Shown here: piece after piece, positions 1-32,061 of the stretch
Layout of the letters: the number at the start of each line of letters is the position of its first letter
How positions within the stretch are numbered: the stretch's first letter is position 1
NCBI GenBank assembly: GCA_014381945.1
Contig: JACNKQ010000026.1
Location: forward strand, 1-40,141
Source: Actinomycetota bacterium
GTDB taxonomy: Bacteria; Actinomycetota; Acidimicrobiia; Acidimicrobiales; MedAcidi-G1
Direction: 5' to 3'
DNA: 40,141 nt
Program-made: the position numbers and the translations under genes
Notes under the pieces: generated by a model
Database searches by the model: none
What the model saw: the letters and a program-made list of their open reading frames with translations, nothing else
What the model was told of the DNA's origin: nothing

Positions 1-109
1 AGTGGTCCTTGTCCTTCTGCCAGATGTCCTGCGTGTCGTACTGGTCGAAGCGGGCGGATACGGCGGCATCGGTTTCAGCCTGGATGCTGATCTCGTGTTC
101 GATGGGCAC
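1..109 (-). CDS. N-terminus of a cut-off enzyme, perhaps class III aminotransferase
   Basis: Only the first 36 codons are inside the window. A GTG start at 109 follows a good ribosome binding site (AGGAG, 6-nt spacing). The peptide starts VPIEHEISIQAE and ends FDQYDTQDIWQKDKDH. The closing W-x-K-D-x-x-H pattern resembles the region just before the HP-(W/F/Y)-T motif near the N-terminus of class III PLP aminotransferases, but the diagnostic part lies outside, so the call is a guess. It is in line with the DUF1028 and Rieske genes and is probably the next gene of the same minus-strand operon (47-nt gap). An aminotransferase would fit an operon that degrades a nitrogen compound. Confidence 0.35.
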   Translation of the reverse strand, partial: MPIEHEISIQAETDAAVSARFDQYDTQDIWQKDKDH

Positions 110-156
110 TGGGTGCTCCTTGTCAGGGCCGGCGGGACGATTCGGTCTTCGGTCGC

Positions 157-834
157 CTACGGGTCGCCGGCGACGCCGTAGCTGGGTGCGTTCACCGGGT
201 CGAGGGCCCGGACGAGGTACGGCTTCATCTCGGGTTCGTACCTGGTCCAGAGGTGCCGCAGCGTGGCGATCGGATCGTCGTCGTCCCAGTCGACCCGGAG
301 GTCGACGAGGGCGAACGGCTGCTCGTGGTGGACGAGCAGGGCCGCCGAGTAGACGGACCCCTCTTCGCCGCCGGCTGCGAGGCCCGCTTCGAGTCCTCTG
401 AGGAGGCGCTCGGCGAGGTGGTCGCCGGGGCATGCGTCGAACGCATCGGTCATCGCCTGCGGCACGTCGGGTGCGCTCAGGAGGTTGCCGGCGGCGACAC
501 AGTGGTCGCCTTCGCTGATCCGGTTGAGGCCCAGCACGTTGGCGCCGGTGAAGTGCCCGACGCGGCCCTGGAGGTCGACGGCGGTGAGTTGTCGATAGTC
601 GATGTTGTCGCGTCCGGCGGCCACCGCTGCCACGGCCTCGGGGGCGGTGTCGCCGGCAGCGAGTCGTTCGAAGACGAGTTCGGCGAGGTGCGGGTCGGTG
701 ACGTTCTGGGTCGAGACGGCCCCGACGCCTGCCCTGGCGTGTGGGCATCTCGAACCGACGCAGATCGACGAGGTCGTGATCGCCACGCCGAACATGTCGG
801 TGCGGGCGCAGTGGCCGACGACGGAGAAGGTCAT
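157..834 (-). CDS. DUF1028 family protein (Ntn-hydrolase-like)
   Basis: 225 aa, the usual size for DUF1028. The N-terminus MTFSVVGHCARTDMFGVAI, a conserved GAVSTQN stretch and the GHFTGANVLG region are typical of this family, which is grouped with Ntn-hydrolase folds; no reaction is firmly established for it. It starts 9 nt after the Rieske gene ends, with no obvious Shine-Dalgarno site, so translation is probably coupled. Family members often sit with M20 peptidases, RidA proteins and aminotransferases in amino-acid or peptide catabolic operons, as here. No signal peptide is seen, so it is probably cytosolic. Confidence 0.8.
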   Translation of the reverse strand: MTFSVVGHCARTDMFGVAITTSSICVGSRCPHARAGVGAVSTQNVTDPHLAELVFERLAAGDTAPEAVAAVAAGRDNIDYRQLTAVDLQGRVGHFTGANVLGLNRISEGDHCVAAGNLLSAPDVPQAMTDAFDACPGDHLAERLLRGLEAGLAAGGEEGSVYSAALLVHHEQPFALVDLRVDWDDDDPIATLRHLWTRYEPEMKPYLVRALDPVNAPSYGVAGDP

Positions 835-843
835 GGGCGCACG

Positions 844-1986
844 CTATGCGAGCCGGTCGGCCAGGTACCCCATCAGGTCATGGAGCTCGTGTTCCAGCCA
901 ACTGAGGGGACCGGGTCTCGCCAGGGGCGCACGGGAGCCCCGGTGGATGCCCTCGACGACGACACGGTCCTCCTCGCAGACGTCGGCGAAGAATGCGACG
1001 GTCTCGGCCACCCACGCCTCGGGATCGTCCAACGAGGCGTACATCTCCGGTGCCGCTGCGATTCCGAAGCGCAGGTCCACCTGCGAGGTGCCTCTGGGTC
1101 GCAGCGACAGGTACCAGAGGTGGTCGGGTGCGAGGATGTACATGTGCGACGGGAACACCGTCGGCATCACGGTTGTGCTGCGCCACTCGCCGTCGAGGCT
1201 CGTGTTGTCGGCGTGGGCCCGGCCGTACCTGGAGCGTTCGTCCTTGGCGAACAACTGGTAGGTGAACGCCGGGTGGCGCCTGTCGGGGAAGACCACAGAG
1301 TCCATCGGCATCCAGGTGCCGAGCGTGGCCCAGTGTGCGACGGGCAGGTGGTAGCCCTCCATGAAGTTCTCGGTCAGGAACTTCCAGTTCGTGTTCCAGA
1401 CGTGGTCGGCGCGGTGGACGGGCACGTAGTGGGCGATCCCGTACCGGGCGACGAGGTCGTCGAGTGGCTCGAGCAGTTCGGCGACCGGCAGTGCGTCGGG
1501 GTCGAGCGTGATGTAGATCCAGCCGTTCCACACCTCGGTTCGGATCGACGGGAGGCAGTGGTCGGCCTTGTCGAACCCGTCGGTGGCCTCCATGTGGTTG
1601 GCGGCGGCGAGTCGGCCGTCGAGGTCGTAGGACCATGCGTGGTAGGGGCACACGATCCTGCCGGTGTTGCCGCTGCCGTCGAGGAGTCGCATCATCCGGT
1701 GGCGGCAGACGTTGGCGAGGGTGCGGATCTCGCCGTCGCGGCCGCGCATGCAGAACACGGGCTGGTCGGCGATCGAGTAGGTGAGGTAGTCGCCGGGTTC
1801 GGGGATCTCGGCGGCGAGCCCGGGCGACACCCAGTCGTGGGCGAACATCCGCTGCTGCTCCAGTTCGAGGATCTCCTCGCTGTGGTACATCTCGGGCGGC
1901 ATCGCGGTTGCGCCCGACAGCGGGCCGTCGGCGACCTGCCGCAGCCGGGCGAGCACCGCTCTGACCTCGGGGCTCAGGGAGGACAC
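844..1986 (-). CDS. Rieske non-heme iron oxygenase, large subunit
   Basis: 380 aa. The Rieske [2Fe-2S] site is complete: C94-x-H96 (NVCRHR) and C113-x2-H116 (CPYHAW). The catalytic domain has the mononuclear iron motif ENFMEGYHLPVAHW, giving H213 and H218 as ligands after E206/N207; the third, acidic ligand would lie in the C-terminal third. The architecture is that of ring-hydroxylating oxygenase alpha subunits and of the related choline/carnitine/betaine oxygenases. No beta subunit, ferredoxin or reductase gene is nearby, so electrons must come from elsewhere. GTG start at 1986, 12 nt after ridA. Position in an operon with an M20 deacylase, acyl-CoA dehydrogenase and RidA protein suggests hydroxylation or N-dealkylation of a nitrogenous substrate, but the substrate cannot be read from the sequence. 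Confidence 0.9.
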   Translation of the reverse strand: MSSLSPEVRAVLARLRQVADGPLSGATAMPPEMYHSEEILELEQQRMFAHDWVSPGLAAEIPEPGDYLTYSIADQPVFCMRGRDGEIRTLANVCRHRMMRLLDGSGNTGRIVCPYHAWSYDLDGRLAAANHMEATDGFDKADHCLPSIRTEVWNGWIYITLDPDALPVAELLEPLDDLVARYGIAHYVPVHRADHVWNTNWKFLTENFMEGYHLPVAHWATLGTWMPMDSVVFPDRRHPAFTYQLFAKDERSRYGRAHADNTSLDGEWRSTTVMPTVFPSHMYILAPDHLWYLSLRPRGTSQVDLRFGIAAAPEMYASLDDPEAWVAETVAFFADVCEEDRVVVEGIHRGSRAPLARPGPLSWLEHELHDLMGYLADRLA

Positions 1987-1998
1987 GGGGTGGCCTGG

Positions 1999-2415
1999 TC
2001 AATCCGGGATGACGGCGGTGGCTTCGATCTCGACCAGCCACTCCGGGCGGGCGAGTGCCGACACGACGATGCCGGTGGAGCAGGGATGGACTCCGACCAG
2101 CCATTTCCCCATCTCCCGGTACACGGCTTCGCGGTGGGAGATATCGGTGAGGTAGACGACGATCCGGCAGATGTGGCCGAGTTCTGATCCGGCTTCGGCG
2201 AGCAGCATCTCGATGTTCGCCATCGTCTTTTCGGTCTGCCTGGCGGCATCGCCGACGTGCAGCGACTCGCGGGTCTCGAGGTCCTGCGACACCTGGCCCC
2301 GCAGGAACACCATCGTCCCGCGGGCCACGACTCCCTGGCTGAGGTCGTTGTCGAGGTTCTGTTCCGGGTAGGTGTCCCTGGTGTTGAAGGGGCGGATCCG
2401 CTGGTGGCTGGACAT
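1999..2415 (-). CDS. RidA/YjgF/UK114-family protein lacking the catalytic Arg
   Basis: 138 aa. ATG at 2415 follows GGGAG with 5-nt spacing, which decides the start against a much longer read-through frame. The C-terminus (ARPEWLVEIEATAVIPD) is the standard RidA ending. Archetypal RidA proteins deaminate reactive enamines/imines using an Arg in P-A-R-(S/T); here the same place reads HPCSTG, with Ser113 where the Arg should be. It therefore looks like one of the Rid subfamilies without that Arg, and imine deaminase activity should not be assumed. It sits between the acyl-CoA dehydrogenase and Rieske genes and probably handles an unstable intermediate of the same pathway. Confidence 0.88.
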   Translation of the reverse strand: MSSHQRIRPFNTRDTYPEQNLDNDLSQGVVARGTMVFLRGQVSQDLETRESLHVGDAARQTEKTMANIEMLLAEAGSELGHICRIVVYLTDISHREAVYREMGKWLVGVHPCSTGIVVSALARPEWLVEIEATAVIPD

Positions 2416-2432
2416 GGTCGCTCCCGGCCCGC

Positions 2433-3644
2433 TCAGGCGCCGGCGTGGGCCTGTCCGGCGTCGATCGGGTCGACCTCGAACGGGGTGGAGCCGCCCCTGC
2501 CGCCCTTGGCGGAGAAGCCGTGGCCGAGCGCCAACTGTGCGAGGCGCTCGAGATAGAGGTCGTCGCGGAAGTGCAGGGTGAAGGTCCGGGCGTCGCGCAT
2601 CATCTGTCCGAGCGGGTAGCGCTCGTGGCAGGCCCGGGCGCCGACCAGGTCGAAGCCCTCGTACGGGATCGCCAGGACGACCTCCTTGGCGAGGTGCATG
2701 GTGCGGACGGCGTCGGCCTCGCATTCGTCCGGGTCGTCGCCGCGGTCGAGGCGGGCGGCGGTGGAGCGCAGGCCCGCTCGTGCGGCGAACAGGTCGGCGT
2801 CCATCTTGCCGAGGCGCACCCGGACCGCTTCGGAGTCGGCCAGGTCGTCGCGTTGGCCGATGTAGCCGGCGATGAAGTCGAACGCGGCCTGTGCGGAGCC
2901 GAGGTGGTTGGCGGCGTAGGCGCAGGAAAATGTTCGGGGGTCGCCGGTGACCCAACCGCCGGGCTCCCCGACCACGTGGTCGTCGGGGATGAACACGTCG
3001 TCGAACTTCACCCCGCAGGAGATGGTGGAGCGCATGCCCAGCATCTGCCAGTCATCGAGGAGTTCGACACCGTCGGATTCCGTGTCGACGACGGCGAAGA
3101 CGAGGCGGTGGGCGTAGGAGTCGTCGCCTTCGACGGCCGCCCACACCATGAGGTACTTGGCGATCGCCGCCACGGAAGCGAAGCCCTTGCGTGCGGTGAG
3201 TCGGTAGCCGCCGTCGACCTTCGTCAACTCGGCAGCCAGCTTTTCGGCACCGTTTTCGAAGATGTGCGCCTCGGAGCCGAGCGAGGCGCAGAACGCCCCG
3301 TCGACGATCCTCGGCATGAAGTGGTCGCGCTGCTCGGGGGTGCTGTGCCAGGCGATGATCCCGGCGGCGTGGTTGTGGACCTGCAGCAGTTGCGCGGTGT
3401 TCGACTCCCACCATGCCAGGCGTTCGAGGATCTCGTACCAGGCGGAGTAGTTGCCGGGCAGCCAGAGGCCCGCTCCGCCGTATTCGGTCGGCAGGCAGAG
3501 AACGTGGAGCCCGGCGGCCTTCGCCTCGGCGAAGTTCTCGTGGGGGAACGCCACGGTTTCGTCGAGGCCGCGCATGCGTTCGCGGAAGCGGGGGCCGAGT
3601 TCGTCGATGCGGGCGAGGATCTCTTCGGTGGCGGCGGTTGTCAT
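2433..3644 (-). CDS. Acyl-CoA dehydrogenase-family flavoprotein
   Basis: 403 aa, full length for the family. N-terminal helical domain with LPTEYGGAGL (about residues 52-61), a middle beta domain (GMRSTISCGVKFDDVFIP) and a C-terminal four-helix domain with ERYPLGQMMRDAR, the usual R-x2-RDAR-type FAD/CoA region. The stretch after RDAR, where the typical Y-E-G-T catalytic-Glu motif is expected, reads TFTLHFRDDLYLERL, so the classic base is not evident; the protein may be a dehydrogenase with a relocated base or a monooxygenase-type member (DszC/HpaB-like branch). RBS GAGGAG, 5-nt spacing. Its ATG overlaps the stop of the upstream M20 gene (ATGA), showing translational coupling. Confidence 0.85.
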   Translation of the reverse strand: MTTAATEEILARIDELGPRFRERMRGLDETVAFPHENFAEAKAAGLHVLCLPTEYGGAGLWLPGNYSAWYEILERLAWWESNTAQLLQVHNHAAGIIAWHSTPEQRDHFMPRIVDGAFCASLGSEAHIFENGAEKLAAELTKVDGGYRLTARKGFASVAAIAKYLMVWAAVEGDDSYAHRLVFAVVDTESDGVELLDDWQMLGMRSTISCGVKFDDVFIPDDHVVGEPGGWVTGDPRTFSCAYAANHLGSAQAAFDFIAGYIGQRDDLADSEAVRVRLGKMDADLFAARAGLRSTAARLDRGDDPDECEADAVRTMHLAKEVVLAIPYEGFDLVGARACHERYPLGQMMRDARTFTLHFRDDLYLERLAQLALGHGFSAKGGRGGSTPFEVDPIDAGQAHAGA

Positions 3645-4795
3645 GGGGACTCCTCGGGATCGGCGCCAGTGCAGAACGCCTGGATGGTCTCGTGCAGGAC
3701 CTCGACGCAGCGGTCGAGTTGGGCGGGTTCGACGTACTCGTTGGGCTTGTGGGCGTCGGCGATGTCGCCGGGACCGACGATGACGGCCGGCGTGCCGAGG
3801 CGGTCAGCGTAGAGCCCGGCCTCGCATCCGAATGACACGGGGAGGGGCCTTCCGGAACCGACCAGTGCCTCGAGCGAGGTGACGGCATCGAGCGACGGGT
3901 CGGTGGCGAGCGCCGGGTAGGAGAGGACCTGTTCGGCCTCGATGTGTCCGCCGACGTCTTCCAGGCGGGAGCGGGCCGAGGCGACCTCCTGCCAGAACCC
4001 GGCGAGCACGGCTTCGGGATCCGTGTCGGCGCCGTGGCGGAGTTCGAAGTCGAGGGTGCAGTCCGGGGCAAGCACGTTGAGTGCAAGGCCCCCGTGGATG
4101 CTGCCGACGTTGGCGCTGATGCCTGCGCTGGTCGAGTTGAGGTCGCCGATTGAGACCGCCAGCCCTGCGGCGATCATTACGGCGCTGGGGTCGATTGCCG
4201 CCCGGCTGGAGTGGCCGGCCCGGGCCCTCACGTCGATCCGGTGGGCGACCTTCCCGGTGTGGGCGTTGCAGAGCCGCATACCTGTCGGCTCGCCCACCAC
4301 GACGACCTCCGGGGCGCACGGGGAGTGCCCGGCCAGCCGGTCGAGCAGGCCGTGCACGCCGACGCACCCGATCTCCTCGTCGTAGCTGAGGCCCAGGTGG
4401 ACCGGCGCTCTGAGGGTCGCAAGGTCGACTGACTCGAGGACCACCAGGGCGGCGGCGAGGAAGCCCTTCATGTCGGCGCTGCCACGGGCACGCAGCTGTC
4501 CGTCGACCTCGGTCAACGAATACGGGTCGGTGGCCCAGCCGGTGCCGGCGGGGACGACGTCGGTGTGGCCGGAGAGCAGGATGCCGCCGGGGACGTCGGG
4601 CCCGAACCGGACGTGGAGGTTGGCCCGCCCGGTGTCACCGTGGACGACATCGACTGCGGCGTCGGCCCTGGCCGCCCGGTCGGCGAAGAGGTCGATGAGC
4701 TCCAGGTTCGTGGACAGGCTCTCGGTGGGGAACGCCACGAGGTCGGCGAGGAGGTCGACGACCGCCGACCCGGTCGCCTCCCGTACCGATGCCAT
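3641..4795 (-). CDS. M20 family deacylase, ArgE (acetylornithine deacetylase)-like
   Basis: 384 aa, zinc-dependent M20 fold. Visible metal/catalytic motifs: LLSGHTDVVP (His ligand plus Asp), RGSADMKGF (bridging Asp), SYDEEIGCVG (Glu base and Glu ligand), VVGEPTGM and, near the C-terminus, PGDIADAHKPNEYV with the final His. The overall pattern is that of ArgE-type N-acyl amino-acid deacetylases. No arginine-synthesis genes surround it; as first gene of a catabolic operon it more likely removes an acyl group from a pathway intermediate. Start at ATG 4795, because a near-consensus promoter (4803-4831) places the transcript start at this codon, giving a leaderless mRNA. Confidence 0.88.
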   Translation of the reverse strand: MASVREATGSAVVDLLADLVAFPTESLSTNLELIDLFADRAARADAAVDVVHGDTGRANLHVRFGPDVPGGILLSGHTDVVPAGTGWATDPYSLTEVDGQLRARGSADMKGFLAAALVVLESVDLATLRAPVHLGLSYDEEIGCVGVHGLLDRLAGHSPCAPEVVVVGEPTGMRLCNAHTGKVAHRIDVRARAGHSSRAAIDPSAVMIAAGLAVSIGDLNSTSAGISANVGSIHGGLALNVLAPDCTLDFELRHGADTDPEAVLAGFWQEVASARSRLEDVGGHIEAEQVLSYPALATDPSLDAVTSLEALVGSGRPLPVSFGCEAGLYADRLGTPAVIVGPGDIADAHKPNEYVEPAQLDRCVEVLHETIQAFCTGADPEESP

Positions 4796-4802
4796 GCCGA
4801 TG

Positions 4803-4831
4803 ATTGTCGCCCTCTGTGTTTCGGTCGTCAA
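4803..4831 (-). promoter_or_regulatory. Leaderless promoter of the M20/Rieske operon
   Basis: On the minus strand TTGACG (4831-4826) and GACAAT (4808-4803) are separated by exactly 17 nt. The -10 box ends 7 nt before the ATG at 4795, so transcription should start at or next to the start codon. No Shine-Dalgarno sequence is present. Confidence 0.65.
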
Positions 4832-4862: not shown

Positions 4863-6104
4863 TCATTCTCTGGTGGTGGGCAGGACCTCGTCGAAGGTGT
4901 CGAGGTCGCGCAGGGCGGGGAACCAGCGCCACCACAGCGCCACCACGACGATCGTGCCCACCCCGCCGAACACAACAGCCCCGACGAGGCCCATAAAGGC
5001 CGCTGTCAGGCCCGACTCTGCGGCGCCGAGTTCGTTGGATGCACCGATGAACACGTTCTCGACGGCGAGCACCCTCCCACGCATCTCTTCGGGGGTTGCC
5101 AGCGGTACCAGCGTCAGGCGGATGAACATCGAAACGGCGTCGGCCCCGGAGAGCACCAGCAGCGCAACGAAGGCCAGTGCATAGCTGCGGCTGAACCCGA
5201 GGACGACCGTGCCGAGGCCGAAGACCGTGACGACCGCCAGCAGGATGTGCCCGAGGTTTCGCTGCACGGGTCGAACCGCCAGCACGATCGTCACGGCCCC
5301 GGCCCCGATGCCCACTGCTGCACGAAGCCACCCCAGGCCCACCGCTCCGACTCCGAGTCGATCCTCGGCGATGGCGGGGAGGAGGGCGACGGCGCCTCCG
5401 AACAATACGGCGAACAGGTCGAGTCCCATGGCCCCGAACAGGATCGGGCTGCGTCGGATGAACCGGAGTCCCTCAAGTGCTTCGTGGACCGCCCGGCCGG
5501 GACTCGGGGCGTCGAGCCGTCGGACTCCGGACGAGGGCGTCAGGACGACGATGCCGAATGCGATTGCCAGGGCGACAGAGGCGGCGAGGTACGGCAGCGG
5601 CTCATCGACGACGAAGAGAAGGCCGAATACGACCGGCCCGACGATGATTCCGGCCTGGAAGGCGACCGACTTCAGGGCGACGACCCTGGTCACCACTGCG
5701 AGCGGCGAGAGGTCGATCATGAGGGCCCGGCCTGCGGGCGCTGCGAACGAGCGGGCGATCCCCACGATGCCGATGATGAAAAAGATCGGCACCACTGAGG
5801 TCGGTTCGCTCCTGGCGTAGCCGAAGAGCAGCAGCGATGCCATTGCCTCGGTCACGAGGGCTGCGCCGAACACCCAGCGCCGGTCGATGCGGTCGGCGAC
5901 GGTCCCGGCAATCGGAGCCAGGATGACCACCGGAAGGAACTCGGCGAGGCCCAGCAGGCCGAGGTCCAGTTCCCGGCCCGTCAGGTCGTAGACCTGCTTG
6001 CCGACGATGGTCACCTGGCCGACCATGGCGAATGAACCGAGGAAGTGGGCGACGAACAGCACCCGTACCCGAACGGGGATCCGAATCGGTTCGGGGGTGT
6101 GCAT
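4863..6104 (-). CDS. MFS transporter (MFS_3/EntS-like exporter)
   Basis: 413 aa with about 12 hydrophobic segments. The cytoplasmic loop after TM2 reads AGTVADRIDRRWV, the classic MFS D-R-x-x-R-R signature, and the second half carries the related PEEMRGRVLAVENV loop typical of the EntS/MFS_3 group. Integral membrane protein, probably a proton-driven exporter of a small molecule; substrate not predictable. Start chosen at ATG 6104 (MHTPEPIRIPVRVRV), since a longer frame would run into the divergent monooxygenase gene. CAGAGT lies 6 nt before this ATG and may be a -10 box. Divergent from the EthA-like gene, so the two may share control. Confidence 0.85.
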   Translation of the reverse strand: MHTPEPIRIPVRVRVLFVAHFLGSFAMVGQVTIVGKQVYDLTGRELDLGLLGLAEFLPVVILAPIAGTVADRIDRRWVFGAALVTEAMASLLLFGYARSEPTSVVPIFFIIGIVGIARSFAAPAGRALMIDLSPLAVVTRVVALKSVAFQAGIIVGPVVFGLLFVVDEPLPYLAASVALAIAFGIVVLTPSSGVRRLDAPSPGRAVHEALEGLRFIRRSPILFGAMGLDLFAVLFGGAVALLPAIAEDRLGVGAVGLGWLRAAVGIGAGAVTIVLAVRPVQRNLGHILLAVVTVFGLGTVVLGFSRSYALAFVALLVLSGADAVSMFIRLTLVPLATPEEMRGRVLAVENVFIGASNELGAAESGLTAAFMGLVGAVVFGGVGTIVVVALWWRWFPALRDLDTFDEVLPTTRE

Positions 6105-6188
6105 CGGTTCACTCTGCCACCGGTTGCGGGACGCACCGGACTCCGGGCGGATGTGGCATCTGACGATCCCATGGTGGACCCTCTGCCC

Positions 6189-7670
6189 ATGGGCGAGCGA
6201 GAGGCTGAGACCGAGCACTTCGATGTCCTGGTCGTGGGGGCCGGCATCTCAGGCATCGGCGGCGCCTACCACCTTCAGCAGCAGTGTCCCGACAAGTCGT
6301 ACGTGATCCTCGAGACCATGGACGGGTTCGGTGGCACCTGGAAGACGCACACGTATCCGGGCATCCGTTCCGACAGCGACCTGTACACGTTCGGGTACCG
6401 GTTCAAGCCATGGACCGGGCCGCCGATCGCCACCGCCGACGAGATCCTCGACTACATGGGCGAGGTGATCGACGACAACGACATCGGCCGCCATATCCGC
6501 TACTCGCACACGATCTCGTCGGCGTCATGGTCGACCGGGGACCGGCGCTGGACCCTCGCGGTGACCCGCACCGACACCGGGGAGCAGGTCCGGTTCACCG
6601 GCGACTTCCTGTGGATGTGTCAGGGGTACTACCGGCACAGCGCCGGATACACCCCCGAGTGGGAGGGCATGGACCGCTTCGGTGGCGAGATCGTGCACCC
6701 CCAGACGTGGCCCGAGGACCTCGACTATGCGGGGAGGCAGGTGGTGGTGATCGGGTCGGGGGCCACGGCGGCGACCCTGATTCCGGCGATGGCGGCCGAC
6801 TGTGGGCACGTCACGATGCTGCAGCGGTCGCCGACCTACTTCGTCGCCCGGCCCAACAGCAACGAGATGGCCGACACCCTCCGGGAACTCGACATCCCGG
6901 AGGAGTGGACCCACGAGATCGTTCGTCGGCAGATCCTCCACACCCAGCAGCAGGTCGTGCAACTGTCGGCCGAGTTCCCGGACCTGGTGCGGGAGGAGTT
7001 GTTCAACGGGATCCGGGAGGTCCTCGGCGAGGACTACGACGTCAGCCCCCACTTCACGCCGTCGTACCCGCCGTGGCGGCAGCGCCTGGCCCTGATCCCC
7101 GATGGCGACCTGTTCCACAGCATCGCTGCAGGCGACGCCTCGGTGGTGACCGACGAGATCGAGGAGTTCACCGAAACCGGCATCCGGTTGAAGTCCGGCG
7201 ACCACCTCGAGGCCGACATCATCATCACCGCCACGGGGTTCGAACTCAACGTGCTGGGCGACATCGACTTCTGCATCGACGACGAACCGCTCGTCTTTTC
7301 CGACACGGTCGGCTATCGGGGGATGATGTTCACGGGCATTCCGAACATGGTCTGGGTGTTCGGCTACTTCCGCGCCAGTTGGACGCTGCGGGCAGACCTG
7401 GTCGCCGACTTCGTGTGCCGGCTCCTGCACCACCTGGATGACCGTGGCGCCTCGATGGTGACGCCGGTGTTACGCGCCGAGGATGCCGGCATGGACCTGC
7501 GGCCGTGGGTCGACCCGGAGGACTTCAACCCCGGCTACCTGATGCGTGCCATGCACCTGATGCCCCGTCAGGGAGCGCACGATCCGTGGCGCATGTCGCA
7601 GGACTACTGGGCCGACCGGCACACCATCCCGACCGCCGACCTGGACGACGGCACCCTCGTCTACGACTGA
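6189..7670 (+). CDS. EthA-like Baeyer-Villiger flavin monooxygenase
   Basis: 493 aa from ATG 6189, close to the 489 aa of mycobacterial EthA. FAD Rossmann motif GAGISG (17-22), the Baeyer-Villiger fingerprint FGGEIVHPQTWP (164-175) and NADPH Rossmann motif GSGATA (189-194) are all intact. Further EthA-like blocks are YPGIRSDSDLYTFGYRFKPW, TMLQRSPTY, LKSGDHLEADIIITATGFEL and the C-terminal GYLMRAMHLMPRQG. The family inserts oxygen beside ketones or oxidises thio-compounds; the mycobacterial member activates ethionamide. ATG 6171 and a start at 6045 are possible; 6045 would overlap the divergent MFS gene. Physiological substrate unknown. Convergent with the tryptophan dioxygenase gene. Confidence 0.93.
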   Translation: MGEREAETEHFDVLVVGAGISGIGGAYHLQQQCPDKSYVILETMDGFGGTWKTHTYPGIRSDSDLYTFGYRFKPWTGPPIATADEILDYMGEVIDDNDIGRHIRYSHTISSASWSTGDRRWTLAVTRTDTGEQVRFTGDFLWMCQGYYRHSAGYTPEWEGMDRFGGEIVHPQTWPEDLDYAGRQVVVIGSGATAATLIPAMAADCGHVTMLQRSPTYFVARPNSNEMADTLRELDIPEEWTHEIVRRQILHTQQQVVQLSAEFPDLVREELFNGIREVLGEDYDVSPHFTPSYPPWRQRLALIPDGDLFHSIAAGDASVVTDEIEEFTETGIRLKSGDHLEADIIITATGFELNVLGDIDFCIDDEPLVFSDTVGYRGMMFTGIPNMVWVFGYFRASWTLRADLVADFVCRLLHHLDDRGASMVTPVLRAEDAGMDLRPWVDPEDFNPGYLMRAMHLMPRQGAHDPWRMSQDYWADRHTIPTADLDDGTLVYD

Positions 7671-7684
7671 GGCCGGGCAGCCGC

Positions 7685-8629
7685 TCAGGACTCGAGACGG
7701 GTGCGCAGCGACCACAGTTCGGGGAAGTACCGGAACTCGGTGGTTTGGCGCAGCCATTCGACGCCCGTGGATCCGCCGGTGCCCGGCTTGTAGCCGATGA
7801 TGCGCGACACGAGCACGAAGTGGCGCCACCGGTAGAGGGCCATCTGTTCGTCGAGTGCGATCAGGGTTTCACCGAGGCGGTAGAGGTCGTTGCCGGTGCT
7901 CGGATCGTCGTAGATGTCGAACCAGGCCTGCTCGACGCTCTCGTCGGGGGGGTAGGCGTCGGCCCAGTCGCGGTCGAGCGCACCGGGGTCGATGGCGAAA
8001 CCCCGGCGGTCCAGCATGGCGATGACCTCGTCGTAGAGGCTGGGGCTATCGAGGGCCTCTTTCATGTGGGGCCACACGTGGGGGACGTTGCGGTGGGCGC
8101 TGGCCAGGTGCCGGTCCTTGTTGCCGAGGATGAACTCGACGTGGCGGAACATGAACGACAGTTGGCCGGACGCCTCGTCGAGGTGGTCGCGGAACTGGTT
8201 GAAGCCTTCGGCTGACACGGTGGCGACAACGTCCCACGTGCTGATCAGAAGCTTGGCGATCTCGAGCGAACGGTCGAGCACCAGCATGGCGTCGGAGACC
8301 TGGTCGCCACGGATGAGGTGGCGGGCGTTGTGAAGTTCGAAGTGGAATGACTTGAACAGCAACTCCTTGACCTGTCCCATGATGAAGAAGCACGTCTCGT
8401 CATAGGCGTCGCTGCGGGGGTGCTGGAGGGTGAGCAGCAGGTCGATGCTCTGGTAGTCGATGTACGGGTTGCTGGTGCTGTCGAAGTCGACCCTGGGCGT
8501 GCCACCGGTCTCTTCTACGAACTCGGCCCTGCTGGTGTCGGTCGTGGTACCCATCGGCCGTGGCTCGTTGCCGGGCGGCACCCCGGCCGGGTCGACGATG
8601 GTCGGGATCTGGGGCTTGAACGTGGGCAC
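7685..8629 (-). CDS. kynA: Tryptophan 2,3-dioxygenase
   Basis: 314 aa. Heme dioxygenase that opens the indole ring of L-tryptophan to N-formylkynurenine. Seen: YIDYQSIDLLLTLQ near residue 56, FRDHLDEASGQLSFMFR (146-162, the family's F-R-x-x-L...SG motif), YRWRHFVLVSRIIG with the probable heme ligand H270, and the substrate loop GTGGSTGVEWL (283-293). An N-terminal stretch of about 50 residues precedes the conserved core. GTG start at 8629 follows AGGAGG (5-nt spacing) that overlaps the stop of the upstream arylformamidase, so the two form an operon for consecutive steps. Confidence 0.96.
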   Translation of the reverse strand: MPTFKPQIPTIVDPAGVPPGNEPRPMGTTTDTSRAEFVEETGGTPRVDFDSTSNPYIDYQSIDLLLTLQHPRSDAYDETCFFIMGQVKELLFKSFHFELHNARHLIRGDQVSDAMLVLDRSLEIAKLLISTWDVVATVSAEGFNQFRDHLDEASGQLSFMFRHVEFILGNKDRHLASAHRNVPHVWPHMKEALDSPSLYDEVIAMLDRRGFAIDPGALDRDWADAYPPDESVEQAWFDIYDDPSTGNDLYRLGETLIALDEQMALYRWRHFVLVSRIIGYKPGTGGSTGVEWLRQTTEFRYFPELWSLRTRLES

Positions 8630-8638
8630 TTCCGCCTC

Positions 8639-9514
8639 CTAGGACGGGTCGGGTGACAATCCGTCGAGCAGCGACGTTACCCCCCTGCCGATCGCCGAGT
8701 CGGGGTCGGCGAGGTCGAGGACCACGTCGAAATGGTTGCGTGCCCTGACCTCGAACGCAGTGCAGGTGGACCCTGCAGCCTTCAGGGACCCGGCGAACCG
8801 CCGACTCTGTTCCTTGAACTCGTCTGTCTCGATCTCGCCCCAGCACACGAGGCTCGGGGGGAAACCGGCGACGGCTGCGAGAGCGGGGCTGAGGGCGTGG
8901 GCGTCGGCTGTGGTGAGGTCGAGGGCCTCGACGATTGAGGTCCCGACCAGGGGGCGCAGGTCGAAGACCCCCGAGATCAGCACGGCTGCGCTGGCCAGGT
9001 CGTCGGTGAGGGCCACCATCGCTGCGAGGTGGGCACCGGCCGAGCTGCCTGCCACGACCATCCGAGCAGGGTCGATGCCGACTTCTTCGGCGTGGTCGTG
9101 GAGCCATCGCACAGCCTGTCGGCATTCGTCGACGATCTCGGCGAGCAATGCTTCCGGCGCGAGCGTGTACCCGAGAGCGGCGAAGGCGACGCCCCGGTCG
9201 ACCCATGCCGGGGCGGCGAAGGCGGAGTCCTCCTTGGAGAGTTCCTGCCAGTAGCCGCCGTGGATGAACACCAGCAGCGGCGGTGGCTCATCGGTGCCCA
9301 CCGGAAGGAACAGGTCGAGGAGTTGCCTTGGGGCCGGCCCGTAGGAGTGTTCCTGCCAGGAGTCGACCGTTGCCCGCGCCTCGGCGCTGCGGTCCCGGTA
9401 TTCATCCATAAAGGGGCGGTAGTCGCCACCGATGCAGGAACTGGGCGAATAGGCCACCTCACGTTCGGCCGTGATCATCGACTCCCAACGGACGCTCTCA
9501 TCGACATGGTCCAC
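8639..9514 (-). CDS. Arylformamidase (kynurenine formamidase), alpha/beta hydrolase type
   Basis: 291 aa (279 if ATG 9478, preceded by GGGAG, is the true start). Oxyanion-hole motif HGGYW (85-89), as in AFMID-type kynurenine formamidases, nucleophile S158 in GSSAG, a probable acid around D231 and H261 (ARNHFDV). It hydrolyses N-formylkynurenine to kynurenine and formate. The conserved start of the animal/bacterial AFMID family (EREVAYSPSSCIG) is present. It precedes tryptophan dioxygenase with 9 nt between stop and next start, supporting the assignment over a general esterase. The metal-dependent KynB family is unrelated, so that symbol is not used. No kynureninase or kynurenine monooxygenase is in the window. 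Confidence 0.88.
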   Translation of the reverse strand: MDHVDESVRWESMITAEREVAYSPSSCIGGDYRPFMDEYRDRSAEARATVDSWQEHSYGPAPRQLLDLFLPVGTDEPPPLLVFIHGGYWQELSKEDSAFAAPAWVDRGVAFAALGYTLAPEALLAEIVDECRQAVRWLHDHAEEVGIDPARMVVAGSSAGAHLAAMVALTDDLASAAVLISGVFDLRPLVGTSIVEALDLTTADAHALSPALAAVAGFPPSLVCWGEIETDEFKEQSRRFAGSLKAAGSTCTAFEVRARNHFDVVLDLADPDSAIGRGVTSLLDGLSPDPS

Positions 9515-9582
9515 AGATGTTTGTCTACATCCCTGAGGGCTTTGGATCGGCCCTCGGCCATGACGTGGACCCGGCAGGCACC

Positions 9583-9588
9583 TATTCT
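9583..9588 (+). promoter_or_regulatory. -10 box TATTCT, leaderless start of first PhyH gene
   Basis: TATTCT ends 6 nt before GTG 9595. This spacing puts the transcript start at the GTG and argues for it over the longer frame beginning at 9517, which would reach almost to the divergent arylformamidase gene. Confidence 0.5.
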
Positions 9589-9594
9589 CGTGCC

Positions 9595-10410
9595 GTGGAT
9601 ACCGGACGGATCGGCGAGGCGACCGCTGCTGCGTTAGCTGCCGACGGGGCTGTGTGCCTACGTGGACTGTTCACCGACTGGGTGGATGTCCTGGCCGCCG
9701 GGGTGGCCCGCAACGAAGCCGACCCGAGCGGGTTCTTCGACGACAACGGCACGGCCGACGACGCCGGCCGGTTCTGGGACGACTACTGCAACTGGAGCCG
9801 CATCCCGGAGTACGAACGCTTCGCCTTCGAGTCCGAGGTAGGTGCGGTCGCCGCCGGGTTGATGCGGTCCGAGACGGTGCAGTTGTTCCACGAGCACGTG
9901 CTGGTCAAGGAGCCGGGGGCGCCACGCCACACGCCCTGGCACTGCGACTCCCCGTACTACTTCGTCGAGGGCCCGCAGACGGTCAGCATCTGGATCCCCC
10001 TCGACCCGGTGCCCCTGGCGTCGACCCTGCGGTTCATCCGCGGCTCGCACCTCTGGGACGCAGCGGTCCATCCGGTGAGTTGGACGACCGGCGACGGCTT
10101 CTACGGCGACGACGAGACGACCGAGAGCGGGGGCTTCCGGCCGGCCCCGGATCCGGATGCAGACCCTGACCGGTACGACATCCTCGAGTGGGCCTGCGAG
10201 CCGGGTGACGCCGTGGCGTTCCACTTCAACACGGTGCACGGGGCGAGGGGTTCGGCGAACCTGCGGCGGGCGTTTTCCATCCGGCTCGTGGGCGACGACG
10301 CCCGCTACGTGCAACGCCGGGGCCGCACCTCGCCACCGTTCGAGGGCCACGACATGGTCGAGGGTCAGCGCCTCCGCCAGGACTGGTTCCCGATGCTCCC
10401 CGTAGGTTGA
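9595..10410 (+). CDS. PhyH-family Fe(II)/2-oxoglutarate dioxygenase (first of tandem pair)
   Basis: 271 aa from GTG 9595. Iron ligands of the double-stranded beta-helix fold: TPWHCDSPYYF (H-x-D) and the distal His in FNTVHGARG, with the 2-oxoglutarate-binding Arg in NLRRAFSIR. LRFIRGSHLWD is a typical PhyH block. The Asp of H-x-D is present, so hydroxylation rather than halogenation is expected. It hydroxylates an unknown small molecule. Followed by a second PhyH gene 5 nt downstream, itself with its own -10 box. Divergent from the kynurenine operon, which hints at, but does not prove, an indole- or kynurenine-type substrate. Confidence 0.88.
   Translation: MDTGRIGEATAAALAADGAVCLRGLFTDWVDVLAAGVARNEADPSGFFDDNGTADDAGRFWDDYCNWSRIPEYERFAFESEVGAVAAGLMRSETVQLFHEHVLVKEPGAPRHTPWHCDSPYYFVEGPQTVSIWIPLDPVPLASTLRFIRGSHLWDAAVHPVSWTTGDGFYGDDETTESGGFRPAPDPDADPDRYDILEWACEPGDAVAFHFNTVHGARGSANLRRAFSIRLVGDDARYVQRRGRTSPPFEGHDMVEGQRLRQDWFPMLPVG
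10403..10408 (+). promoter_or_regulatory. -10 box TAGGTT, internal leaderless promoter
   Basis: TAGGTT overlaps the last codons of the first PhyH gene and ends 7 nt before ATG 10416. No Shine-Dalgarno sequence is seen, so the second PhyH gene may be transcribed from its own leaderless start as well as by read-through. Confidence 0.5.
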
Positions 10411-10415
10411 CCGGG

Positions 10416-11258
10416 ATGAGCACCAACTGGGGCACCACGCTGACGGCAGGGCAATGTCGGGCGTATGCAGAGGACGGTGTCGTCCACGTGCCGAACGCCG
10501 TCGATTCGGACCTCCTCGCCGAGATCGACCGATTGGCCGACCGCCAACTGCAGGAGCCGGGGCCGTGGGTCACCGACGATGGCGCCGAGCAGACAGACGG
10601 GCGCCTGTTCACCACCCGTTACCTGTGGCGCAGCGAGCCGGCCGTCCGCCGCTTCGTATTCGAGTCGGGTGTGGCCGGGCTGGCGGCCACGCTCATGGGC
10701 TCGACCTCGGCCCGCTTCTACTTCGACCACCTGCTGGTCAAGGAGCCGGGCACCGAGTCGCCGACGCCGTGGCACCAGGACATCGGGTACTGGCCGTTCC
10801 TGGGATCGAAGATCTGTTCGGTGTGGGTGGCCTGCACCGGGGCCAGCGTGGCGGAGAGTTCGCTCGAGTTCGTAAGGGGATCGCATCTCTGGGGCTGCTA
10901 TTTCGCCCCCGAGTCGTTCACCGGCGAATCCGAGTGGACAGCCGACTTCGAGGGTGAGCACTGCCCGGACATCGATGCCGCACGCCGCGACTACGACATC
11001 GTCGGGTTCGACGTGGAGCCCGGTGATGCACTGGTTTTTTCGGCGTGGACCGTCCACGGGGCGGCGGGAAACGCCGGCACGCATCGCCGGACCGCCCTTT
11101 CGACTAGGTGGCTGGGCGACGACGCCACGTGGTCGCCACATCCGGGCAGCGATCCCAGCGTGACCCAGGCCGATACCACGGCCGTCCCCGGCGAGTACCC
11201 GGCCGACGACGACCGCTTCCCGCTGGTCTGGCCGGCATCCGACGGGAGGACCCCATGA
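10416..11258 (+). CDS. PhyH-family Fe(II)/2-oxoglutarate dioxygenase (second of tandem pair)
   Basis: 280 aa. Motifs parallel those of its neighbour: TPWHQDIGYW (H-x-D), LEFVRGSHLWG, distal His in SAWTVHGAAG and Arg in HRRTALSTRWLGDD. The pair clearly shares ancestry (LVKEPG, RGSHLW and RLVGDD/RWLGDD blocks in both) but is divergent, so it is an old duplication or two enzymes acting in sequence. TTG 10407 in frame is less likely than ATG 10416. Its stop overlaps the amidase start (ATGA), tying it to amide hydrolysis. Substrate unknown. Confidence 0.88.
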   Translation: MSTNWGTTLTAGQCRAYAEDGVVHVPNAVDSDLLAEIDRLADRQLQEPGPWVTDDGAEQTDGRLFTTRYLWRSEPAVRRFVFESGVAGLAATLMGSTSARFYFDHLLVKEPGTESPTPWHQDIGYWPFLGSKICSVWVACTGASVAESSLEFVRGSHLWGCYFAPESFTGESEWTADFEGEHCPDIDAARRDYDIVGFDVEPGDALVFSAWTVHGAAGNAGTHRRTALSTRWLGDDATWSPHPGSDPSVTQADTTAVPGEYPADDDRFPLVWPASDGRTP

Positions 11259-12697
11259 GCAGCCACGCCTACTCTTCTGCGAGCCGGATAGCCATGGGCA
11301 TCCGGGAGGGAACGACCTCCAGCCGGGATGCCCTCGAGGAACTGATCGACCGCGTGGCACGCCTCGACGGGCCGCTCAACTGTGTCGTCACCCTGGACCT
11401 GGAGCGGGCACGCGCACAGGCGGATGCGTGCGACGCCGAGGTGGCCGACGGTCACCTGCGGGGTCCGCTGCACGGTGTGCCGATGACCATCAAGGACTCG
11501 TTCCAGACGGAGGGGCTGCGGACGACTTCGGGTGCCCCGGAACTCGCCGATTTCGTGCCGGAGAAGGACGCCGTACCGGTTGCCCGCCTGAAGGCCGCCG
11601 GGGCCGTGGTCTTCGGCAAGACCAACCTGCCGATCTACGCCGGCGACACCCAGACCTACAACGAGGTGTTCGGCGCTTCCAACAACCCGTGGGATGTGAC
11701 CCGGACCGTCGGTGGTTCCTCCGGAGGGGCGGCCGGTGCCCTGGCCGCCGGGCTGACCCCGCTGGAGCTCGGAAGCGATATCGGAGGTTCGATCCGGGGA
11801 CCGGCGAGCACCTGCGGGGTGCTCGGCCACAAGCCCTCGTACGGGATCGTTTCGGCGCTCGGTCAGATTCCCGGTCCGCCGGGGACGCTCAGCCAGGCCG
11901 ACATCGCCGTCGCCGGACCGATGGCACGCGACATCGAGGACCTGGAGCTGGGCCTGGATGTCCTTGCGGGACCAGACGAATGGCACGCTCCGGCCTACCG
12001 GCTCGACCTGCCGCCGGCACGACACGGGCATCCCGGCGGGTACCGGGTGGCGGTCTGGATGGACGAGGATTCAGCGCCGATCGATGACGAGGTTCGCACG
12101 CAGCTCGAGGGGGCCGCCGACCGCCTCGAGGCGAGCGGTGCAACGGTGGACCGCACTGCCCGTCCCGCGTTCGACTTCGACTATGCGACCCGCGTTTTCC
12201 TGCAGTTGCTCGGCGCGGCCGAGTGCGGCGGCTTCCCCCATGACGAGATCGAACGGATGGCAGAGGAGAAGATCGAGGAGCAGGCGGGCCTCGTGCCCGG
12301 CTTCTATTCGCTGCGGCACCGGGCGTGGCTGTCGGCCAACGAGCGTCGCCTCCAGATGCGCCGCATGTGGCATGACTTCTTCAGGGACTTCGATGCAGTG
12401 CTCCTTCCGACGCTGCCGACGGATGCGATCGAGCACGACCATTCCGAACCGTCGGATAGGCGGTCGATCACGGTCAACGGCGCACAGCGGCCGTACCTGG
12501 ACCAGTTGCTCTGGGTGGGGCTGACCGGTGTCGCATTCCTGCCTTCGACTGTGGTGCCGGTGGGTCGGACCGGCCGGGGCCTGCCGGTGGGCATCCAGGT
12601 CGCCGGTCCGTTCCTCGAGGACCACACGACCCTCGACCTGGGCCGCCACATCCTCGACCAGGCCGGAGGCTTCGAGGCGCCCCCCGGCTTTCGGTAG
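11255..12697 (+). CDS. Amidase signature-family amidohydrolase
   Basis: 480 aa. The Ser-cisSer-Lys triad is visible: Lys in PMTIKDSF, cis-Ser in VGGSSGGAAGALAAG and nucleophile Ser in GSDIGGSIR. Hydrolyses a C-N amide bond; family substrates include acyl amides, indoleacetamide and nylon oligomers, and none can be chosen from the sequence. Strong RBS GGGAGGA (11244-11250) and ATGA overlap with the preceding PhyH gene show co-translation, so the three plus-strand genes probably hydroxylate and then hydrolyse one substrate. GatA is unlikely because no gatB/gatC is near. Converges on the lipoprotein gene with only 10 nt between. Confidence 0.92.
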   Translation: MSSHAYSSASRIAMGIREGTTSSRDALEELIDRVARLDGPLNCVVTLDLERARAQADACDAEVADGHLRGPLHGVPMTIKDSFQTEGLRTTSGAPELADFVPEKDAVPVARLKAAGAVVFGKTNLPIYAGDTQTYNEVFGASNNPWDVTRTVGGSSGGAAGALAAGLTPLELGSDIGGSIRGPASTCGVLGHKPSYGIVSALGQIPGPPGTLSQADIAVAGPMARDIEDLELGLDVLAGPDEWHAPAYRLDLPPARHGHPGGYRVAVWMDEDSAPIDDEVRTQLEGAADRLEASGATVDRTARPAFDFDYATRVFLQLLGAAECGGFPHDEIERMAEEKIEEQAGLVPGFYSLRHRAWLSANERRLQMRRMWHDFFRDFDAVLLPTLPTDAIEHDHSEPSDRRSITVNGAQRPYLDQLLWVGLTGVAFLPSTVVPVGRTGRGLPVGIQVAGPFLEDHTTLDLGRHILDQAGGFEAPPGFR

Positions 12698-15033: not shown

Positions 15034-16221
15034 CTATCCGTTGTCGGTCAGCAGGTCCGGCAGTCGGTCGAGGATGGTGAGGCAGGAGGCCAGGTCGGAG
15101 ACTTCGACGTACTCGTCGGGGCGGTGGGCGACGCCGATGTCGCCGGGACCCCACACGACAGACGGGATGCCGGCCGCCTGGTAGAGGCCGGCCTCGGTGC
15201 CGTAGGCGACGACGCCGACCGGCGGGTCGCCGCCCAGCAGGGACCGCATCAGGTCAATTGCCGGTGAGGCATCGTCCCATTCGAGGCCGTCTATCTCGCA
15301 CACGATCTCGGTCTCGATGGCGGCTTCCGGGTACACGGTGCGCATCTCGACCGCCAGCCCGGCCTCGACCTCGGCCATGCGGGCCTTGACGAACCCGGCG
15401 TCGCTTCCCTGCACGGGGCGCATCTCCCATTCGAAAGCGCACTCTCCGGCCACCGTGCAGCGGGCCATCCCCCCGCTGATCGTGCCGACGTTGGTGGTGG
15501 TGTGGGCGGGCTCGAAGCGGCTGTCGGCCGGCGCCCGGGCGGCCAGTTCGCCTGCCAGCCCCAACAGCCCATCTATCCAGCGGGTTGCGTGGTGGATGGC
15601 GCTGACCGCCTCGGACGGCCGTGCGCTGTGCCCGTCCATGCCGGTGACGGTGGTCGTGTACTCGTAGCAGCCCTTGTGGGCGCCGACGACCTGCAGGCCG
15701 GTGGGTTCCCCGACGATCGCGGCTGCCGGCTGGGGTGCGTCCGCCAGCGAGTCGATCAGCACCGGGGCGCCGTGGAAGCCGTCCTCCTCGTCGAAGGTGA
15801 GGGCGATGTGGATCGGGCGCTTCAGGTCGGCGGCTGCGAACGTCGGGGCCAGCGCCAGCACGCAGGCCACGAAGCCCTTCATGTCGGCGGTGCCCCGACC
15901 GTAGATGCGGTCTTCGATGCGGGTGGCTGTGAACGGCGGCGTCGCCCAGTCGGCGGGGTCGACGGGCACGACGTCGCTGTGGCCGGCCAGCATGACGCCG
16001 CCGTCGACCAAGGGGCCGATCGTGGCGAACAGGTTGGCCTTGGTGCCGGTGGGGTCGTGGCTGAGACGGATGTCGGAGGCCACGCCGTCGAGCCGGTCGA
16101 CCACCCAGGCGACGAGGTCGACGTTGGGCGTGAGCGCCACCGACGGGAAGGCGATCAGGTCGTCGAGGATCGCGAGGGTGTCGTCCAGCAGCGCCTCGTC
16201 GGTCGAAGGGTGGCCGGTCAC
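15034..16221 (-). CDS. M20 deacylase, probably acting after ectoine hydrolase
   Basis: 395 aa, ArgE/DapE-type M20 zinc hydrolase. Motifs: LAGHSDVVP, RGTADMKGF, TFDEEDGFHG, IVGEPTGLQ and PGDIGVAHRPDEYV. GTG start overlaps the stop of the DoeA-like gene (GTGA), so the two are co-translated. In known ectoine degradation, DoeA yields N-acetyl-diaminobutyrate and DoeB, an AstE-type enzyme, deacetylates it. DoeB is absent here; an ArgE-type enzyme works on the closely similar N-acetylornithine, so this gene is a plausible DoeB replacement (inference). It is distinct from the M20 gene at 3641, to which it shows only family-level similarity. Confidence 0.88.
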   Translation of the reverse strand: MTGHPSTDEALLDDTLAILDDLIAFPSVALTPNVDLVAWVVDRLDGVASDIRLSHDPTGTKANLFATIGPLVDGGVMLAGHSDVVPVDPADWATPPFTATRIEDRIYGRGTADMKGFVACVLALAPTFAAADLKRPIHIALTFDEEDGFHGAPVLIDSLADAPQPAAAIVGEPTGLQVVGAHKGCYEYTTTVTGMDGHSARPSEAVSAIHHATRWIDGLLGLAGELAARAPADSRFEPAHTTTNVGTISGGMARCTVAGECAFEWEMRPVQGSDAGFVKARMAEVEAGLAVEMRTVYPEAAIETEIVCEIDGLEWDDASPAIDLMRSLLGGDPPVGVVAYGTEAGLYQAAGIPSVVWGPGDIGVAHRPDEYVEVSDLASCLTILDRLPDLLTDNG

Positions 16222-17402: not shown

Positions 17403-17408
17403 CGGCAC

Positions 17409-17414
17409 AACGTA
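17409..17414 (-). promoter_or_regulatory. -10 box TACGTT, leaderless start of doeA-like gene
   Basis: TACGTT ends 6 nt before ATG 17402 on the minus strand. The opposite box at 17452-17457 lies 37 bp away, so both promoters share one short divergent control region. Confidence 0.5.
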
Positions 17415-17451
17415 GTGGCCGCATCAGTCCGACGAAATGGCCCGGAGGCAA

Positions 17452-17457
17452 TAGCGT
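17452..17457 (+). promoter_or_regulatory. -10 box TAGCGT, leaderless start of third PhyH gene
   Basis: TAGCGT ends 7 nt before ATG 17465; no RBS. Partner of the divergent box at 17409-17414. Confidence 0.5.
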
Positions 17458-17464
17458 TCCGGCC

Positions 17465-18289: not shown

Positions 18290-18309
18290 GGGTCGAGGCC
18301 CGGACCCGG

Positions 18310-18339
18310 TTGTCCCGACACCCCGCCAGCGTCCATACT
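18310..18339 (+). promoter_or_regulatory. Candidate promoter before the M24/oxoprolinase genes
   Basis: TTGTCC (18310-18315) and CATACT (18334-18339) are 18 nt apart, followed by a leader with RBS GGAGGA (18355-18360) 5 nt before GTG 18366. Unlike most starts here this gene would have a conventional leader. Confidence 0.35.
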
Positions 18340-18365
18340 TCCGACGCCCGAACCGGAGGAACCCC

Positions 18366-19517: not shown

Positions 19518-19537
19518 CCCCGGGGATCCTGCGCACC

Positions 19538-30306: not shown

Positions 30307-30309
30307 GGG

Positions 30310-31962: not shown

Positions 31963-32019
31963 GTGTGGCTCCAGTTTCGGGGCGGGCGGATGGTTGCGGT
32001 CGGCCACAGTCTGCCGTAG

Positions 32020-32038: not shown

Positions 32039-32061
32039 TACTTTCATCTGGTGACACACTC

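Follow-up and report, generated by a model that had tools for sequence, protein, structure and literature searches.

A minus-strand operon that continues across a contig join

The DNA analysed here (the window, 40,141 nucleotides) is a complete contig (C78; JACNKQ010000026.1) of the 2.49-Mb, 78-contig genome (G000) of a bacterium from the Acidimicrobiales (Actinomycetota). At its left end five genes lie on the minus strand and encode, in the direction of transcription, an M20-family deacylase, a flavoprotein, a RidA-like protein, a Rieske oxygenase and a DUF1028 protein. The initial annotation had read them as a coupled operon of five or six genes, and both parts of this reading were confirmed: the gaps between successive genes are -4, 17, 12 and 9 nt, and 47 nt beyond DUF1028 lies the start codon (position 109) of a sixth gene, which is interrupted by the contig end. 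The features of the region are given below, where names beginning with Hin refer to the Pseudomonas pathway described further on.

4863..6218, minus strand: MFS transporter, possibly co-transcribed (Pfam MFS_1, 96.6 bits)
4803..4831, minus strand: promoter-like site TTGACG-17-GACAAT, sigma-70-like (consensus match only)
3641..4795, minus strand: M20/ArgE-like deacylase, in the position of HinG (N-formylaspartate deformylase) (Pfam Peptidase_M20, 105 bits)
2433..3644, minus strand: flavoprotein of the acyl-CoA-dehydrogenase fold, probably a reduced-flavin monooxygenase in the HinF/HpaB slot (Pfam Acyl-CoA_dh domains)
1999..2415, minus strand: RidA-like protein, in the position of HinL (Pfam Ribonuc_L-PSP, 69.5 bits)
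844..1986, minus strand: Rieske oxygenase alpha subunit, subtype A (ENFMEGYHLPVAH) (Pfam Rieske, 63.5 bits; Ring_hydroxyl_A, 79.9 bits)
157..834, minus strand: DUF1028 protein, predicted N-terminal nucleophile (Ntn) hydrolase fold with N-terminal Thr2, in the position of HinH (Pfam, 212.4 bits)
1..109, minus strand: start of a class III aminotransferase gene, continuing in contig C2 (L127 18488-19891; 55-nt exact overlap)

The operon could be followed beyond the contig end, as had been recommended initially. The window begins with the same 55 nt with which contig C2 ends, and the reading frame across this join encodes a class III aminotransferase of 485 aa. The next gene on this strand encodes a sulfatase and may start at a GTG that overlaps the stop codon of the aminotransferase gene; it is followed by a TauD-like gene that overlaps its end. 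The region of contig C2 downstream of the aminotransferase (L127 11245-18737) also carries genes for a D-amino-acid-transaminase-like protein and for Xsc.

Transcription of all genes from one promoter had also been proposed. A stretch of 6.6 kb contains two sigma-70-like sites, where shuffled sequence has 0.1 on average, and a single promoter is therefore plausible. The promoter-like site stands directly before the M20 start codon, at a spacing to the ATG that would mean a leaderless mRNA; that all genes share one transcript is likewise no more than plausible. The MFS gene lies 67 nt upstream of the M20 gene on the same strand and may belong to the operon.

The M20 protein scores 341.3 bits with the NCBIfam model PRK07522 (412 needed) and 290.2 bits with AcOrn-deacetyl (297.7 needed), and its motifs GHTD, ADMKG, DEE and GEPT and the AH of AHKPNEY align with those of acetylornithine deacetylase (7rsf). 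The aminotransferase exceeds the cut-off of PRK07036 (704.9 against 618 bits) and is 61-62% identical to aminotransferases adjoining M20 genes in loci L065, L078 and L082.

RidA and DUF1028 genes are conserved neighbours

A scan with a RidA alignment gave 595 pattern matches, of which 588 were confirmed; the locus counts in this work refer to the 80 nearest of these 588 and are not an unbiased sample. In 73 of the 80 loci a DUF1028 gene lies no more than 2.6 kb from RidA, as it does in 65 of the 70 that offered 2.5 kb of room on both sides. Seven loci (L037, L059, L040, L061, L064, L095 and L115) had no nearby DUF1028. In L037 and L059 the contig breaks off within the Rieske gene or shortly beyond it, and in the genome of L040 a DUF1028 gene adjoins HpaB elsewhere. 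Counting matches of >30% identity within 10 kb, RidA was accompanied by M20 in 41 loci, LysR in 56, Rieske in 17, HutD in 10, aspartate ammonia-lyase in four and primary-amine oxidase in three. Clusters containing Rieske, DUF1028 and RidA genes, which the initial annotation had suggested searching for, do exist, and their linkage is conserved. The window RidA is 85% identical to those of L037 and L038 and 82-84% identical to several that are linked to HpaB.

In a sample of 396 genomes from the phylum, RidA of the operon type occurred in five, each time linked to DUF1028, which adjoins RidA or, in the window, sits one gene further. DUF1028 itself was present in 104 of the 396 genomes and would thus have other partners in most of them, so that one function cannot be extended from this operon to the whole family. 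Among the plasmid stretches read, which were chosen from search matches, 10 of 13 carry RidA-DUF1028 together with an argE/M20 gene; L017, L026 and L027 are without RidA, and the M20 gene of Arthrobacter L028 is known from annotation only. A search for the Rieske protein in 296 genomes of the class (E <= 1e-60) gave four matches including G000, and the other three, 40-42% identical, had no RidA or DUF1028 match in the stretches examined.

Plasmid records with a DUF1028 match comprised 105 from Klebsiella and seven from Escherichia. One E. coli plasmid record (L022) has RidA-DUF1028-argE, followed by ABC transporter, quinone oxidoreductase, GST and AroQ-like genes. G000 has a second, distant DUF1028 gene, 39% identical (C3:342-935, L013).

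Relation to the hin pathway

Imidazole is the ring of histidine and histamine. In histamine-degrading Pseudomonas, hinFLHG convert imidazole-4-acetate, an intermediate of histamine breakdown, to aspartate. In two reports (PMC6467879, PMC8231116), HinF is given as an FAD monooxygenase (EC 1.14.13.5), HinL as an enamine deaminase, HinH as an amidase, HinG as an amidase (EC 3.5.1.8), HinI as an aspartate ammonia-lyase, HinC as an aminotransferase, HinD as an aldehyde dehydrogenase, HinA as a permease and HinK as a LysR regulator.

Two hin-like gene sets were found. In L130 (genome G623), about 12 kb hold genes for aspartate ammonia-lyase, M20, DUF1028, RidA, HinF, LysR, an aldehyde dehydrogenase, an amino-acid permease and a class III aminotransferase. 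DUF1028 is the gene left over for HinH in this set, and gene order, rather than the Pseudomonas sequence, therefore indicates that HinH is a DUF1028 protein. If so, the initial suggestion that the operon may give a new function to DUF1028 is largely pre-empted. In L128 (G106, from the same order as the window genome), permease, aminotransferase, aldehyde dehydrogenase, LysR, HpaB, RidA, DUF1028, M20 and flavin reductase genes lie together, with no match to aspartate ammonia-lyase within the 20-kb stretch. This set contains HpaB without HinF, and HpaB would therefore stand in for HinF there. Distant M20 proteins with weak Pfam scores occupy the place of HinG in L128 and in L130 (7858-9123), and a single open reading frame (ORF) of L128 (11905-13080) combines a flavin reductase domain with a LysR substrate-binding domain.

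The window operon likewise encodes a HinL-like RidA, a DUF1028 protein in the position of HinH and a HinG-like M20 protein together. It shares with hinFLHG of Pseudomonas putida U and P. aeruginosa these three slots (that of HinH by gene order), the LysR gene frequent among its relatives and, less certainly, an aminotransferase within the operon, which falls under another NCBIfam equivalog than that of L130. It differs in having a flavoprotein of the acyl-CoA-dehydrogenase fold instead of HinF, in its additional Rieske oxygenase, in the downstream genes and in a genome that gave no match to aspartate ammonia-lyase. A search with the HinF of L028, confined to G000, gave no match at E <= 0.001; such an empty result proves nothing on its own unless a genome known to match is included. 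Because neither HinF nor HinI turned up in searches of G000, the operon should not be filed as hin, although it probably works like hinFLHG.

Three kinds of flavin enzyme beside RidA

The initial annotation had described the flavoprotein as acyl-CoA dehydrogenase-like. Its best NCBIfam models are instead the monooxygenases SfnB (110.9 bits, 430.9 needed) and DszC (98.1 bits, 850 needed), both scores being far below the cut-off. In a profile alignment its RTHSLH falls on RTFTLH of DszC (4doy), and His358 stands at the end of the DszC alignment; the range aligned with a second DszC structure (3x0x) ends at residue 391, facing His358. We take His391 to be the catalytic histidine of DszC.

The distribution of flavin oxygenases within 6 kb of RidA is complementary: HinF was found in 25 of the 80 loci, HpaB in 30, a flavoprotein of the window type in two and none in 23. 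The two are L037 and L038, both from Acidimicrobiales; their flavoproteins are 80% identical to that of the window, and their gene order is LysR-M20-flavoprotein-RidA-Rieske, followed in L038 by DUF1028. In L040, L053, L057 and L060, where RidA-Rieske has no flavin gene beside it, the genome encodes elsewhere an HpaB that is 68-88% identical to that of L054; the genome of L067 has one at 70%, and that of L050 a match of 31% only. No match to HpaB was found in G000 or in the genome of L038 (E <= 1e-20; nine genomes searched, L037's not among them), and G000 gave two flavin reductase (PF01613) matches.

The HpaB-type cassettes, in which HpaB and flavin reductase genes accompany RidA and DUF1028 and many of which come from Alphaproteobacteria, resemble the window operon in their RidA (up to 84% identical) and, in five cases (L045, L047, L049, L054 and L059), in having the same Rieske subtype beside RidA; they differ in the flavin oxygenase, which belongs to the Pfam family HpaB instead of Acyl-CoA_dh. 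This complementary distribution suggests that any of three flavin oxygenases can serve in the first step, namely HinF, HpaB with a flavin reductase, or the window-type flavoprotein, which would do the job of the other two.

DUF1028 as a predicted N-terminal-threonine hydrolase

The DUF1028 protein was modelled with AlphaFold2 at a predicted local distance difference test score (pLDDT) of 94.7. Compared with known structures (VIA), the model matched the known DUF1028 structure 2imh with a Z score of 31.8, taspase-1 with 17.6 and HslV with about 12. In several of the HslV/proteasome rows, residue 2 of the model is the first to be aligned and falls on residue 1 of the chain, and Met1-Thr2 is invariant in 43 aligned DUF1028 sequences. 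The protein is therefore predicted to be an Ntn hydrolase whose N-terminal threonine may hydrolyse an amide, such as that of a cyclic imidazolone. In a tree of the family, the window protein belongs to a set of six rows that are all Rieske-linked (support 96), within a mixed set of 15 (support 98).

Two Rieske subtypes

The closest relative of the window Rieske protein in the PDB is the carnitine monooxygenase CntA, and with the NCBIfam model GbcA it scores 149.1 bits, below the cut-off of 670. The CxH/CxxH and NWK-EN-E-YH-H motifs are present, including the bridging glutamate (CRHRMMRLLDGSGNTGRIVCPYH, NWKFLTENFMEGYHLPVAH), and CntA reads NWK..DNYMECYH at the aligned place. A glutamate at this place, which we take to be a mark of the CntA/GbcA group, is kept in every Rieske row of the motif comparison. 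The window protein thus resembles CntA and GbcA in being a Rieske alpha subunit and in the position of its bridging glutamate; it differs from them in its low GbcA score and in its gene neighbourhood.

In a tree made by a quick method and with long outer branches, two subtypes were separated. Subtype A (12 rows, support 98) consists of the window, L038, L040, L045, L047, L049, L053, L054, L057, L059, L060 and the unlinked L017 of Roseovarius pelagicus, the other 11 rows being linked to RidA. Its motif, that of the window, occurs in eight of the 11 linked rows, the exceptions being L038 (ending VTH), L057 (MES) and L059 (one X). Subtype B, the Caballeronia type, comprises 13 rows (support 99), of which 10 have the motif ENFMESYHLPVCH; L018 and L023 (PMLH) and L064 (FRLH) deviate. 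RidA and DUF1028 flank the subtype A gene in the window and in L038, L045, L047, L049, L053, L054, L057 and L060, and L045 and L049 have both subtypes. In L065 a PhyH gene occupies the slot between RidA and DUF1028, and in L038 PhyH and MTTB genes follow DUF1028. L047 has an extra gene between Rieske and DUF1028 (11569-12684), which from its sequence reads like a member of the histone-deacetylase/acetylpolyamine-amidohydrolase family. Since the bridging glutamate is kept and CntA is the best match in the PDB, our best guess is that the Rieske enzyme N-demethylates a methylated imidazole.

A proposed route and its alternatives

Together, the enzymes of the operon probably carry out a variant of the hin-type route, in which imidazole-4-acetate or a methylated relative would be converted to aspartate, formate and ammonia. 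From the observed linkage and flavin-oxygenase distribution and the predicted hydrolase fold, we infer each of its reactions as follows. The class III aminotransferase would take the amino group off histamine or a similar amine. The Rieske enzyme might then pre-oxidise the substrate, at a guess by removing an N-methyl group, after which the flavoprotein, to judge from its slot and its complementary distribution, would hydroxylate the imidazole ring to an imidazolone in place of HinF or HpaB. The N-terminal-threonine amidohydrolase DUF1028 could open the imidazolone to an N-formimino-amino acid. Conversion of the N-formimino to an N-formyl compound, a weak step, may fall to RidA (HinL) or to the HutF encoded in the window, and by analogy with HinG the M20 enzyme would remove the formyl group.

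This route would be a twin of the Hut pathway, one carbon shorter. The Hut pathway (HutH-U-I-F) opens an imidazolone ring, proceeds through formimino and formyl steps and ends in an amino acid; the proposed route has these features in common with it and differs in the enzyme families and in the end product, aspartate instead of glutamate. Genes for histidine breakdown are present on the same contig (hutI, hutF and hutU on the minus strand and hutH on the plus strand, 27216-34265, all above NCBIfam cut-offs). An imidazole operon on a contig with hut genes is fitting, and such a neighbourhood alone is little proof.

Several observations weigh against this route, as does the positional basis of the HinH assignment. 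The canonical arginine of RidA, which we take to be Arg105 in the E. coli protein, is not kept: in an alignment with PH0854 its place (PARVA) is taken by Ser113 and in one with NMB1025 (PARAC) by Thr114, so that a deaminase role of RidA is doubtful and the formimino-to-formyl step is weak. Identity between the window aminotransferase and those encoded in L128 and L130 is only 36-37%, and the window protein falls under a different NCBIfam equivalog from that of L130. The M20 proteins in these two loci are distant: they score 37 and 31 bits in Pfam and gave no match with the window M20. Aspartate ammonia-lyase had no match in G000 or in the genomes of L037 and L038 (G660, G662) at E <= 1e-30, a search in which G623, the source of the query, and G661 matched; nor did the aldehyde dehydrogenase of L028 match in the window or in L127, the stretches covered by that search. 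A structure model of the flavoprotein reached a pLDDT of 41, from an alignment of three sequences, and was not used. Finally, the sulfatase, TauD and Xsc genes downstream, and the Xsc near L038, do not fit.

The substrate had initially been thought to be an N-acyl or N-alkyl amine. The gene order points to ring cleavage of the hin type rather than to a generic N-acyl amine, and the N-alkyl part may survive as the target of the Rieske enzyme. A more specific form of the proposed route, which we regard as possible but less likely than not, is that the operon is dedicated to N-methylated imidazoles such as methylimidazole-acetates, methylhistamine or marine 1,3-dimethylimidazolium betaines (e.g. 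zooanemonin). Rieske subtypes A and B would then be demethylases for the two ring nitrogens, the flavoprotein would represent a new kind of hydroxylase acting on the imidazole ring, and DUF1028 would hydrolyse the imidazolone as an Ntn-type enzyme. Loci with both subtypes could handle dimethylated rings, because A and B would demethylate different nitrogens. Among the listed papers on N-methylated imidazoles, judged by title and abstract, none showed bacterial genes for the degradation of such compounds. Homarine was considered as a substrate and dropped, nothing relevant having appeared among the papers listed.

The downstream genes suggest another reading, the catabolism of a sulfonate or sulfated amine. 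Here the operon would release taurine or a similar amino compound from an N-substituted derivative, and its breakdown would be completed by the aminotransferase, the sulfatase, TauD and Xsc. The aminotransferase gene is directly followed by the sulfatase and TauD-like genes and, at a greater distance on that strand, by Xsc; L038 too has a downstream Xsc (87% identical), in L024 the Rieske gene is followed by one for TauE/SafE, and the three best NCBIfam models of the flavoprotein, all below cut-off, act on sulfur compounds. However, the Xsc near L038 is the sole close match in the 80 RidA loci (others 34% in L038 and 25% in L116), and L065, L078 and L082, with related aminotransferases beside M20, gave no Xsc match in the stretches examined. 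We consider this reading unlikely.

An N-demethylation of the betaine or carnitine type, with RidA, DUF1028 and M20 processing a non-imidazole product, appears similarly improbable. The Rieske protein is closest to CntA and GbcA, its relatives in L017 and L027 adjoin genes for choline dehydrogenase, BKACE (3-keto-5-aminohexanoate cleavage protein), sarcosine oxidase or aminomethyltransferase, and MTTB genes lie beside the L038 cassette and beside HpaB in L175. Yet most RidA-DUF1028 pairs have no Rieske gene within 10 kb, several have HutD or aspartate ammonia-lyase, and MTTB is common in G000 (five genes), which makes it weak support for methyl removal. Thiamine pyrophosphate (TPP) enzymes near L038, L127, L175 and L176 are mutually 25-29% identical, and a TPP decarboxylase was rejected as a conserved step.

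A part in tryptophan/kynurenine breakdown, suggested by genes for tryptophan 2,3-dioxygenase (TDO) and for an alpha/beta hydrolase, whose position would suit a kynurenine formamidase, near the operon at 7685-8629 and 8639-9514, is very improbable, because TDO had no match in the 80 RidA loci; the hydrolase had one (35%, L046), and a monooxygenase gene in opposite orientation lies between.

On the proposed hin-type route, DUF1028, a widespread family of unknown function, would be tied to a testable reaction, the opening of an imidazolone ring by an N-terminal-threonine hydrolase. The slot of the imidazole-ring oxygenase would be filled by three different families of flavin enzyme, and demethylases for N-methylimidazoles are predicted.

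Other genes of the window

Genes for an FMO-like monooxygenase, TDO and the alpha/beta hydrolase adjoin the operon (6045-11258). A PhyH gene (9517-10410) is followed by a second PhyH-like stretch (10437-11144; 27% identity to the L038 PhyH). Further along (15034-23137) lie an ArgE-like M20 protein above the TIGR01892 cut-off and an M24 protein with weak ectoine-hydrolase scores, as well as a fused HyuA-HyuB hydantoinase/caprolactamase-like ORF of 1322 aa, below cut-offs (19169-23137). The segment 35221-38623 encodes a circularly permuted ATP-grasp protein paired with a transglutaminase-like protein.

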